This document shows, one piece after another, positions 2,443 to 12,706 of a stretch of 64,000 bases of DNA. The stretch is from Ralstonia pickettii DTP0602 (lineage in GTDB: Bacteria > Pseudomonadota > Gammaproteobacteria > Burkholderiales > Burkholderiaceae), in contig CP006668.1 of NCBI GenBank assembly GCA_000471925.1, positions 248,001 through 312,000 of the forward strand, read 5' to 3'. Position 1 is the first letter of the stretch. Each line of letters starts with the position of its first letter. The translations under genes and the position numbers were made by a program. The notes beneath the pieces were generated by a model. That model was given only the letters and a program-made list of their open reading frames with translations. It had not been told where the DNA came from and made no database searches.

Positions 2443-3585
2443 ATGTCCGAAGAAAGCGATCTCGAGAAAACCGAACCCGCCTCACCCCGGCGCCTGGAAA
2501 AGGCGCGCGAGGAGGGGCAGGTGGTGCGTTCGCGCGAGCTCGCCACGTTCATCATGCTGATTGCGGGCGTCACCGGCCTGTGGACGCTGGGCGGCCATAT
2601 GGGCCGCAGCCTGAACCAGGTCATGCAGGGCGCGCTGCGCTTCGAGCGCGATACGGCGTTCGACACCTCGCGCATGCTGTCGCGCTTCGGCGTCATGGTG
2701 TGGGACAGCCTGCTCGCCTTCCTGCCCCTGCTGCTGCTGTTCGGCGTGGCCGCCCTGGCCGCGCCGCTGCTGCTGGGCGGCTGGGTGTTCTCGGCCAAGT
2801 CGTTCGCGCCGCAGTTCTCGCGCATGTCGCCGATAGTGGGGCTGGGCCGGATGTTCTCCGCCCATTCGCTGGTGGAACTGCTCAAGGCCGTGGCCAAGTC
2901 GCTGCTGGTCGGCAGCGTCGGCGCCTGGGTCTTGTGGCGACGACTGCCGGAGGCCATCGCGCTGATGAACGCGCCGGTGCAGGAAGCGCTGCTGCACATG
3001 GTCGACCTGGTGATGTACTGCTGCCTGGTGGTGTCGCTGTCGCTGCTGGTGGTGGCGGCCATCGACGTGCCGTGGCAGTACTGGGAGTTCTTCAAGAAGC
3101 TGCGCATGACCAAGGAAGAGGTCAAGCAGGAATTCAAGGAAAGCGAGGGCGACCCGCATATCAAGGGCCGCATCCGCCAGCAGCAGCGCGCCATGGCGCG
3201 CCGCCGCATGATGACCGAGGTGCCCAAGGCCGACGTGGTGGTGACCAACCCCACGCACTTTGCCGTGGCGCTGCGCTATGAGGAAGGGCGCATGAGCGCG
3301 CCGCGCGTGGTGGCCAAGGGCACCGGCGAGGTCGCTGCGCGCATCCGCGCCGTGGCTGCCGAGCACCGTGTGCCGCTGATGTCGGCGCCGCCGCTGGCGC
3401 GCGCGCTGCACCGCCATGTCGAACTCGGCCAGGAAATCCCGGCCGGACTCTATACCGCCGTGGCCGAAGTGCTGGCCTGGGTCTATCAACTGAAGCACTG
3501 GCACCACTCGCAAGGCCCGCAGCCGCAGGCGCCGGCGGACCTGCCGGTGCCCGATGAACTCGCCGTACCGGAAAGTCGCGCATGA
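2443..3585 (+). CDS. flhB: FlhB flagellar export switch protein
   Basis: Inner-membrane component (380 aa) of the flagellar type III export gate that switches secretion from rod/hook to filament substrates. The first half has four hydrophobic segments; the cytoplasmic half carries the autocleavage motif N-P-T-H at residues 269-272, at the same position as in E. coli FlhB. The start at 2443 has GGAG 5 nt upstream. Its stop overlaps the flhA start by 4 nt (ATGA). The C-terminal tail is proline-rich, as is common for FlhB. Confidence 0.97.
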   Translation: MSEESDLEKTEPASPRRLEKAREEGQVVRSRELATFIMLIAGVTGLWTLGGHMGRSLNQVMQGALRFERDTAFDTSRMLSRFGVMVWDSLLAFLPLLLLFGVAALAAPLLLGGWVFSAKSFAPQFSRMSPIVGLGRMFSAHSLVELLKAVAKSLLVGSVGAWVLWRRLPEAIALMNAPVQEALLHMVDLVMYCCLVVSLSLLVVAAIDVPWQYWEFFKKLRMTKEEVKQEFKESEGDPHIKGRIRQQQRAMARRRMMTEVPKADVVVTNPTHFAVALRYEEGRMSAPRVVAKGTGEVAARIRAVAAEHRVPLMSAPPLARALHRHVELGQEIPAGLYTAVAEVLAWVYQLKHWHHSQGPQPQAPADLPVPDELAVPESRA

Positions 3586-10122: not shown

Positions 10123-10132
10123 CCCTGAGGGG
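10123..10132. repeat. Left target-site duplication of IS copy 1
   Basis: CCCTGAGGGG, repeated exactly at 11632-11641. It includes the loop and inner right arm of the palindrome CCCTCTCCCC-CTGA-GGGGAGAGGG that existed before insertion. Confidence 0.9.
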
Positions 10133-11631
10133 CTTGCCTTTACCCACATCTCGATAGGAAAGGTTGTAAACCGGATTGGACGGTGTTAACTTCGGGTGAA
10201 GTTGACAATCAGTGGTGGCAATTTTGCCTGATACGGAAGATCTGGAAGACTGGGCCAGCGACGAATTCGGTGGCGCTCAGTTGGGCGATGCACGTCGCAC
10301 GCAGCGCCTTGTGGCATTGGCGCGCGGACTGGCGCAAAAAGCCCATGTTTCGTTCCCGCAGGCCTTGAGTGGTGCCCAACTCAAGGCGGCATATCGCTTC
10401 TTTGATAATGAGGCGGTCGACCCGGACGGAATACTGGCGAGCCACGTCGTTCAAACCGTGGGTCGCATGCAGCAGGTGCCTGTCGTCCTGACGGTGCAGG
10501 ACACCACGGAATTCAATCTGGCAAATTTGCCCGCGACTGAGGGACTTGGTCACGGCACGGGCGGCAATTTGCACGGATTCATGTTGCACAGCGTGCTGGC
10601 GGTGACGCCTGAGGGCCTGCCACTGGGCGTGTTGAGCATGAAGACGTGGGTGCGTGCGCCGCAAGCATCGGGCAAGGCCAGGCAGCGCCGGGCGCTGTCC
10701 ATTCGCGAGAAGGAAAGCGTGAAGTGGCTGGAGGGGCTGGAATGCCTTGAGCCGCTCAAGATGCAGTGTCCGGACACGCACCTTGTTGCCGTCAGCGATC
10801 GCGAGGGCGATGTGTATGACGTGTTTCTGGCGCCGCGCCCAGCGGGGGTGGACTGGTTGGTGCGGGCCGCCTGGAATCGGGGCGTGGACCACCCAGAGAA
10901 GTATCTGTGGGAGACGGTTGCCGCGGCTCCTGTACTTGGGGAGACCGTACTGCACGTGCCCAGGTCCGGCGCCAGGCAGGCACGTAGTGCCCGACTGGCT
11001 TTGCGCTGTGTGCCGGTCCAACTGCGAGCGCCGCGCAGCCGCGGTGCAGAGGGGCTACCGAGTCTCGAAGTGTTTGCCATTCACGCGCTGGAAATCGAGC
11101 CGCCCGAAGGCGTTGAGCCGCTCGAATGGATGTTGCTCAGTTCGATGCCCACCCAAACGCTGGAAGATGTGCTCGAACGGCTGAGCTGGTACGCCCGGCG
11201 CTGGACCATTGAATCCTGGCATCGTGTCCTGAAAAGTGGCTGCCAGATCGAGGCCCGGCAGTTCGGGACGCTGGAGCGGTTCCTGCGGGCCACGGCGCTG
11301 TTCGCCGTGATCGGCTGGCGCATTATGTACGCGACCATGCTGGGCCGGCTCGAAGCCGATATCCCTTGCTCGGTGCTACTGCAATCGCTCGAATGGCGGG
11401 CTTTGTACTGCCGCACGCACGGCACCACCAAGCCACCGGAGCAGGCGCCCAAACTCAGCGAAGCTGTCCTTTGGATCGCCAAGCTCGGTGGCTACCTGGG
11501 TCGCAAAAACGACGATCCCCCGGGAGCCACCGTCCTGTGGCGCGGCTTCCTCGCCCTGCACGAAATCACCGAAATGTATCGGATCTTCCAGAAAAACGAG
11601 TAAGCCGCCGGAAGTTGTGGGTAAAGGCAAG
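10133..11631 (+). mobile_element. IS4-family (IS50-like) insertion sequence, copy 1
   Basis: A 1,499-bp element bounded by perfect 16-bp terminal inverted repeats (CTTGCCTTTACCCACA at the left, its complement at the right) and a 10-bp target duplication. One transposase gene fills it. Between the left end and the transposase start is a hairpin (positions 10185-10206, stem GTTAACTTC-like with a GGGT loop) that could limit transposase translation from readthrough transcripts. It sits in the loop of a REP-like palindrome between flhE and flgN. A second copy of identical length lies at 21373-22871 in the opposite orientation. Confidence 0.95.
10212..11603 (+). CDS. IS4-family transposase (copy 1)
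   Basis: 463-aa DDE transposase. The N-terminal 75 residues (EFGGAQLGDARRT then AAYRFFDN) are the Tn5/IS50-type DNA-binding domain. Catalytic residues are D97 (QDTTEF), D195 (SDREGD) and E333 in a perfect Y-(2)-R-(3)-E-(6)-K signature at residues 326-340. The start codon is GTG. It appears intact and differs from copy 2 by about a dozen residues, so the two copies are not a very recent duplication. Confidence 0.95.
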   Translation: MVAILPDTEDLEDWASDEFGGAQLGDARRTQRLVALARGLAQKAHVSFPQALSGAQLKAAYRFFDNEAVDPDGILASHVVQTVGRMQQVPVVLTVQDTTEFNLANLPATEGLGHGTGGNLHGFMLHSVLAVTPEGLPLGVLSMKTWVRAPQASGKARQRRALSIREKESVKWLEGLECLEPLKMQCPDTHLVAVSDREGDVYDVFLAPRPAGVDWLVRAAWNRGVDHPEKYLWETVAAAPVLGETVLHVPRSGARQARSARLALRCVPVQLRAPRSRGAEGLPSLEVFAIHALEIEPPEGVEPLEWMLLSSMPTQTLEDVLERLSWYARRWTIESWHRVLKSGCQIEARQFGTLERFLRATALFAVIGWRIMYATMLGRLEADIPCSVLLQSLEWRALYCRTHGTTKPPEQAPKLSEAVLWIAKLGGYLGRKNDDPPGATVLWRGFLALHEITEMYRIFQKNE

Positions 11632-11713: not shown

Positions 11714-12175
11714 CTAGCCTGCCGCCAGACTGACCCCACCAACCCCCGCCGCCGCCTTCCCATCCTTCCCATACAACCCCGCATCACCACCGCCATGCTG
11801 GCGCAGTGCCTGGATCGCTTCGCGGGTGAAGTCGAGATGCGCGCTGATGACGGCGCCGTTCAGGGCATTGCCGTCGCGCGTGGCGCGTGCGGCGAAGATG
11901 AGCTTGCGCCAGGCGGCGGCGACTGCCGGGTCGATCTGGCGGCCGAGCAACTGGCCTTCGGGGCCGGCGCGCAGGCCGTGCGCGCCCATCTGGGCTTCGC
12001 GGGCCCTGACTTGGCGGGAGAGGGCCTGGCCCAGTTCTACCTTGCGCGTCAGCAGTTCGCTGAGGGACTGGAAGTCGCCGCGCTTGAGAGCGTCGCGTTC
12101 TTCGGTGAGGAGTTGGCCGAAGGCCTGGATGGCTTCGGTTTCGCGCTGCAGGGACTGGATCAGGCTCTGGCTCAT
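11714..12175 (-). CDS. flgN: FlgN-type export chaperone for FlgK/FlgL
   Basis: Helical cytoplasmic chaperone (153 aa) for the hook-filament junction proteins. The start is the ATG at 12175 (MSQSLIQSL); the frame is open upstream but that part lies inside the adjoining MITE-like element. The long amphipathic N-terminal helix with LLTEERDALKRGDFQSL is typical of FlgN. There is no ribosome site before the ATG: the ancestral arrangement appears to have been an ATGA overlap with flgM, which a 160-bp insertion has broken. flgN expression may therefore be reduced. The family call rests on helix pattern and position after flgM. Confidence 0.85.
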   Translation of the reverse strand: MSQSLIQSLQRETEAIQAFGQLLTEERDALKRGDFQSLSELLTRKVELGQALSRQVRAREAQMGAHGLRAGPEGQLLGRQIDPAVAAAWRKLIFAARATRDGNALNGAVISAHLDFTREAIQALRQHGGGDAGLYGKDGKAAAGVGGVSLAAG

Positions 12176-12184
12176 GATGGGTAG

Positions 12185-12344
12185 GTCCACTAAATCACTG
12201 AAATTGGTCGGTGCCTGCCATGTCAGGCGGGCACCTCGCGTCGTTGCAAATGCTCGCAATAGCTGTGCTATTGCTGCGCTTTGCCCTTAGCGCTGAATCC
12301 CGCCTGACATGTCCTTCACCGACCATTTCAATGATTCAGTGGAC
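12185..12344. mobile_element. 160-bp MITE-like inverted-repeat element between flgM and flgN
   Basis: Arms at 12185-12231 and 12299-12344 are about 46 nt long and pair over most of their length (GTCCACT...TGTCAGGCGGG against CCCGCCTGACA...AGTGGAC). The centre has a nested perfect hairpin GCAATAGC-TGT-GCTATTGC (12256-12274). The element is flanked by a possible 3-bp duplication TAG (12182-12184 and 12345-12347). It contains no gene. Its outermost base completes the TAG stop codon of flgM. Such size and structure fit a non-autonomous element or a dispersed palindromic repeat. Confidence 0.75.
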
Positions 12345-12652
12345 TAGGTCGGGTCGGCCTGGCCGAGCTCGCGCAGGGTGGCGAGCAGGCCGTCGGCAAT
12401 CTTGCCCGGGTCGATCTTGATCCGGCCTTCGGCAATGGCCTGGCGGATCTCTTCGACCTTGGCGGTATCGATATCGTCGTCGGTTTCCTGCGTCAGGCGG
12501 GCGCTGATCTCGCGCACCTGGGCGGCCAGCGGGCTGACGCTCAGGCCGGCGGACGGCGCGGCGGCGCTGGCCGGCGCGGCCTGGGGCCGGGCGGCGGCGT
12601 CGCCCGCGGGAGCGTCGGCGGGCCGGGACGAGGTGGAGTGGTTGATCTTCAC
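12344..12652 (-). CDS. flgM: FlgM anti-sigma28 factor, C-terminus altered by insertion
   Basis: Anti-sigma factor (102 aa) that binds FliA and is exported once the hook is complete. The N-terminal part is disordered and Ala/Pro-rich; the C-terminal FliA-binding half (DTAKVEEIRQAIAEGRIKID, then PGKIADGLLATLREL) is intact. The start is GTG at 12652 with AAGGA upstream, and a sigma28-type promoter precedes it. The TAG stop is formed where flgM runs into the MITE-like element. Joining the flanks at one TAG copy restores three more codons (Tyr-Pro-Ser) and a TGA overlapping the flgN ATG. Confidence 0.93.
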   Translation of the reverse strand: MKINHSTSSRPADAPAGDAAARPQAAPASAAAPSAGLSVSPLAAQVREISARLTQETDDDIDTAKVEEIRQAIAEGRIKIDPGKIADGLLATLRELGQADPT

Positions 12653-12679
12653 GGGCGTTCCTTGCTGGTTTCCTATGGC

Positions 12680-12706
12680 ATTACGGCCGCGGCTGCGAAA
12701 TCTTTA
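12680..12706 (-). promoter_or_regulatory. sigma28-type promoter for flgM
   Basis: On the minus strand TAAAGATT, an exact 11-bp spacer and GCCGTAAT match the FliA consensus. The -10 end is 28 bp from the flgM GTG. Autoactivation of flgM by FliA is the usual feedback in flagellar systems. Confidence 0.82.

Follow-up and report, generated by a model that had tools for sequence, protein, structure and literature searches.

The flgM-flgN junction of Ralstonia pickettii DTP0602 raises the question of what kind of sequence has come to lie between these two genes of a flagellar control operon, and whether its arrival altered the end of the one or the start of the other. Within the window, i.e., the whole 64,000-nt stretch of DNA analysed here, flgM (12344..12652, minus strand, 102 aa; Pfam FlgM, E 1.9e-14) closes with a TAG stop at 12346-12344, and flgN (11714..12175, minus strand, 153 aa; Pfam FlgN, E 2.6e-28) opens with an ATG at 12175-12173, 168 nt past that stop. 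Both frames are open and match their Pfam families, in agreement with the original prediction that they are still readable. On the plus strand, positions 12182-12347 read as TAG, a 160-bp element and again TAG. We take this element for an IS630-type MITE that left the flgM stop unchanged, and give this reading a probability of roughly 0.87; it was presumably mobilised in trans.

The element and its relation to IS630 transposons

The element occupies positions 12185..12344 and was delimited from its sequence, its repeats, its predicted folds and end-aligned copies. It is near-palindromic and non-coding, and its termini form imperfect inverted repeats, with end A (GTCCACTAAATCACTGAAATTGGTCGGTG) at 12185..12213 on the plus strand and end B (GTCCACTGAATCATTGAAATGGTCGGTG) at 12317..12344 on the minus strand. 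Each strand is predicted to fold into a single long hairpin, at -89.3 kcal/mol for the plus strand (z -11.8) and -99.2 kcal/mol for the minus strand (z -12.7), none of 200 shuffles being as good in either case. The ORFs running across it are chance extensions; at 160 bp and with no transposase gene of its own, it falls within the size range of MITEs (below about 300 bp). A consensus scan found no sigma-70-like promoter or terminator inside it, an Rfam search of 11900-12700 gave no match at E up to 1, and the host genome carries only this one copy. We also considered a phage-borne element and rejected it, as there was no phage match and the exact core or end pattern was absent from viral contigs. 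The MITE-like element originally proposed is confirmed in its coordinates, its terminal repeats and the TAG on both sides, and can now be tied to IS630.

The first 20 bases of end B are identical (20/20) to the left end of a plasmid-borne IS630 of Variovorax paradoxus (CP063168.1), an intact transposon with an annotated IS630 transposase and CTA/TAG flanks. End A agrees with the same left end at 18 of 20 bases and, by eye, resembles the right end of that transposon. An IS630 in another genome (G029), with the ends GTCCACTGCGTCATTGAAA, is also flanked by CTA and TAG, and its two ORFs score 133.4 and 51.4 bits against NCBIfam IS630, i.e., above and below the 100-bit cut-off, respectively. A further genome (G007) contains, at locus L128 (G007:C3, about 2596-3008), an internally deleted IS630 relative with the same 20-bp end as the Variovorax element; it measures about 0.4 kb, has kept its outer ends intact and may represent a stage between IS and MITE. 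In the host genome, there are two decayed IS630 copies with outer bases 14/16 alike, whereas a search there for an intact IS630 whose ends match closely, at up to 3 mismatches, gave nothing. On the basis of the ends shared with IS630 transposons and of the decayed copies in the host genome, we file the element as an IS630-type MITE. The similarity between the element and the IS is limited to the ends. A search for the core of the element within IS630 elements was unsuccessful, the best ungapped matches at 11 IS loci having 7-10 mismatches per 23 bases. Movement in trans would have required an IS630-family (Tc1/mariner type) transposase, which, judging from these comparisons, was probably supplied by an IS630 relative now decayed in the host genome.

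IS630 reportedly prefers CTAG, going by the title of a 1991 paper by Tenzen and Ohtsubo, and insertion of the element would have occurred at the TA within CTAG with duplication of the TA. In a search of 148 relatives at E 0.001, matches to the element were detected in 21 genomes, the host's own included, some of them near full length and some restricted to the core. We recognized 33 distinct copies with paired ends (the window copy among them), mostly of 55, 71-72, 159-160 or 239 bp. CTA is present at both ends in ten of these, while TA is found at both ends in 12, at one end in 14 and at neither in 7. The 239-bp forms (L011, L070) hold about 79 extra, partly palindromic bases in the core. In the window, CTAG is rare, with 32 occurrences per 64 kb vs about 207 expected from base composition.

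The target duplication of the window copy itself is not clean. On the flgN strand, the TAG that borders it on the flgN side (12182..12184, plus strand) becomes CTA, although a TA duplication in CTAG would leave TAG there. The TAG on the flgM side (12345..12347, plus strand) reads CTA on the flgM strand and, together with the adjoining G of the element, makes up the C-TAG that holds the flgM stop; the outermost base of the element, 12344, is indeed the G of this stop, as had been proposed. Transposases of this kind do at times leave irregular borders: a study of ISY100, in which the IS630 family is stated to duplicate its TA target, lists 39 insertions in vitro, comprising 34 normal TA duplications, 2 of AA/TT and 3 in which one side has TA and the opposite side a lone A (PMC2170065).

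With the IS630 family (IS630, ISY100 and their Tc1/mariner relatives) and the MITEs derived from it, the element has in common bona fide IS630 ends, TA borders and a non-coding interior, as well as the CTAG target seen in its sister copies. It departs from IS630-derived MITEs in its modular lengths (55, 71, 159/160 and 239 bp), in its optional conserved core and in the unclean border of the window copy. A MITE of Geobacter uraniireducens, Chunjie, is said to be inserted in an operon whose structure it leaves undisturbed. The Correia elements of Neisseria (CREE/NEMIS) differ from the window element in their core, presumably also in their end sequences, and in that the window element has no promoter in the sigma-70 scan. 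They resemble it in being about 155 bp long, with paired ends and a conserved core, in falling into size classes and in lying next to genes (PMC2649163). QMITE2 of Coxiella burnetii, at the end of enhC, is likewise a MITE at a stop codon for which RNase III has been suggested, but there the protein is extended (PMC5896051), whereas in the window the flgM stop is rebuilt. As a miniature transposon, the element is of a common kind; what is unexpected is that its core recurs in many differently ended elements of related bacteria.

The flgM-flgN junction in relatives

FlgM is present in 57 of 60 genomes of the genus, the host's own counted, and the element lies at flgM-flgN in 1 of these 57. We read the junction in 56 relatives, using coordinates at 32 loci that were either more distant or irregularly parsed. 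The nearest empty site was found in Cupriavidus necator A5-1 (G041), with flanks about 93-95% identical to those of the window and a junction reading ...GACC TAG CCCATC ATG, that is, the flgM TAG stop, 6 nt and flgN. The last FlgM residue is identical in A5-1 and the window, and the gap of 6 nt in A5-1 vs 168 nt in the window differs by 162 nt, which is what the insertion would add between the genes (160 + 2). In the 56 relatives, the gap measures 1-12 nt in 43 and 32-105 nt in 13, the latter without the element there; these counts take the MSQ-type ATG as the flgN start of G042 and include an 8-nt gap read by eye in G052, where no 100-aa FlgN frame was listed. The smallest gap is 1 nt (G027 and G028), and an ATGA overlap of the flgM stop with the flgN start was seen in 0 of the 56. 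An IS4/Tn5-type transposase element (window about 10127-11631; NCBIfam IS4) adjoins flgN and is missing from A5-1 as well; thus, flgN is bracketed by two insertions absent there.

The original prediction held that the insertion rewrote the flgM stop, shortened FlgM by Tyr-Pro-Ser and destroyed an ATGA overlap, thereby uncoupling flgN. Its arithmetic is sound, since the window borders look like a perfect 3-bp TAG duplication and the flanks, joined at one TAG, give an flgM frame that ends in PTYPS with ATGA; the corresponding pre-insertion sequence would be CCTACCCATCATGA. As an ancestral state, this is not supported, because the joined site would lack a G that A5-1 has; for a history with an unchanged stop the corresponding sequence would be CCTAGCCCATCATG. 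A5-1 is also just the kind of relative that the prediction had itself named as speaking against it: it lacks the element, and its flgM has the same last residue, followed by TAG. Together with the lack of ATGA in the relatives, this argues that the insertion neither rewrote the stop nor broke such an overlap. Moreover, the window copy is the only one of the 33 with the TAG-border pattern, the clean ones having CTA/TAG. We consider the history with a rewritten stop very improbable, and equally hard to credit is a variant, less likely than an unchanged stop, in which a private loss of the G before insertion and an unusual 3-bp duplication would have produced the overlap for a time. What stands of the broken coupling is the altered spacing, from 6 to 168 nt. 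The preferred reading, an IS630-type insertion with an unchanged stop, has to accommodate the flgN-side border, which is CTA.CCC in the window where duplicating the TA of the A5-1 site would give TAG.CCC; to explain this departure takes either three substitutions or the gain of one base and the loss of another.

Since the target is CTAG and the element starts with G, insertion after the CTA of a C-TAG stop rebuilds TAG. With TAG restored at once, FlgM is the same protein as before, and the insertion in this flagellar control operon is self-repairing at the protein level. Across the copies, a coding-like frame is ended by the junction TAG in 14 of 30 cases vs 20 of 221 unoccupied CTAG sites, a heuristic count in which coding was called solely from the length of the frame and its third-position GC, the control sites were taken from the window and selected loci and are not a random sample, and L066, L068 and L129 (3 of the 33) and copies with only one end found were omitted. 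The binomial P of 9e-8 for this enrichment is only a guide, as the copies are non-independent and the control loci non-random.

A hairpin core shared by differently ended palindromes

The central part of the element, a hairpin core of about 56 nt (12239..12294, plus strand; models R1 and R2), is conserved more widely than the arms and is common to palindromes with other ends. The exact core pattern recovered only the window across the order (1 of 300 genomes) and was too strict, so a covariance model was used instead. With rough E-values in both cases, the first core model, built from 19 cores, has matches in 35 of 200 genomes of the order and 28 of 108 genera (E 0.001), and the second in 60 of 274 genomes of the class (E 0.0001). 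The window core scores 67.5 bits with R2, while the next best place in the window reaches 14.6 bits; over 72 loci not selected for the core (211 kb), the second score after the window locus is 15.4 bits.

Of the pair cells in an alignment of 38 core matches, 95.9% are standard. Both partners have changed in 12 of 15 pairs, and covariation scores 0.518, whereas slid versions reach no more than 0.077 and shuffles no more than 0.140, although this alignment was fitted to the structure and flatters covariation. The signal is weaker in a small MAFFT alignment, with double changes in 2 of 15 pairs, a value reached by 129 of 500 shuffles, and a covariation score of 0.105, reached by none. The stem varies by compensation, while the unpaired CGNCGTTGC and the GCGCCTWGC borders are kept. 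The core is the tip of a longer palindrome, as a 14-bp inverted pair surrounds 28 of 33 core loci vs 4 of 66 control places. Around the cores (loci L204-L261), some twelve types of end can be told apart by eye, partly from an end-pair search whose individual rows are only a guide; several are bordered by CTAG and some not, so that the transposases involved may come from more than a single family, and an IS partner was identified for just two end types. Among the loci examined, L222 and, near contig ends, L242, L254 and L255 (3 of 29 stretches) were read at a wrong position. In several genomes, e.g., at G445:C48, cores come in pairs about 110 bp apart on opposite strands.

A strand-specific RNA role of the core was considered and set aside, because orientation to genes is unbiased: with crude gene calling at 46 loci, 13 cores lie on the same strand as the gene, 16 on the opposite strand, 13 between opposed genes and 3 within a called frame, and 1 is undetermined. 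Rfam returned no match at E up to 0.1 for 17 core loci, and the core sequence strings retrieved only titles on other subjects from open-licence literature.

Possible RNA roles and flgN expression

The original prediction was right that flgN has no good ribosome site, but this is not a consequence of the insertion, as the relatives pair even less with the anti-SD: for the 20 nt upstream of flgN, the calculated pairing energy is -3.0 kcal/mol in the window, against +0.6 to -0.4 kcal/mol across 14 relatives. If anything, the element is predicted to add a weak ribosome site before flgN. The start region of flgN is predicted to be about as open as in relatives, with a mean unpaired value of 0.47 vs 0.51-0.62 and, for the ATG, 0.65 vs 0.06-0.89. 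A long hairpin in the transcript could nevertheless separate translation of flgN from that of flgM, or serve as the substrate of a double-strand RNase, and the outcome would be a modest fall in FlgN or none. We consider a real fall less likely than not; lower FlgN with altered FlgM-FliA timing would be a possible result.

Two alternatives see the element mainly as RNA. The one would make it a control device whose hairpin is either cleaved by RNase III or stands in the way of ribosomes, so that FlgN falls and FlgM/FliA timing shifts. The very stable fold and the widening of the gap to 168 nt are consistent with this, and by analogy so are the Correia elements, which are described as bound and cut by RNase III when present in mRNA (PMC2649163, PMC10969869); processing of the hairpin would on these grounds be plausible here, and nothing more. 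However, start-site accessibility is predicted to be as in relatives, anti-SD pairing is slightly better than theirs, gaps of 32-105 nt occur in 13 of the 56, and neither a sigma-70-like promoter nor a terminator matched within the element, which together make such a device rather unlikely. The other alternative, a gene for a structured RNA that is fixed in the genus and does not move, could draw on the strong conservation and covariation of the core, but it is hardly tenable given that the junction is occupied in a single genome of the genus and empty in others, that further copies lie in unrelated places, and that the core shows no preferred orientation to neighbouring genes.

For the IS630-type MITE that we prefer, the locus serves as a caution against inferring ancestral frames from a single genome. 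The rebuilding of a C-TAG stop by an element that starts with G and targets CTAG offers a simple reason for the pile-up of such elements at gene ends. As for the core, we put it at somewhat less than an even chance that it is a module of its own, handed on between miniature transposons whose ends, and probably whose transposase families, differ, in beta- and gammaproteobacteria. Its compensating stem, its kept unpaired borders and the absence of gene orientation bias suggest that it may act on DNA, as a folded single strand or cruciform that some factor of the host recognises or that the surveillance of palindromes lets pass. If so, any MITE with this core at its tip would survive or spread better. 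A covarying hairpin that is found in differently ended palindromes and absent from Rfam provides a testable entry into why miniature transposons share cores.
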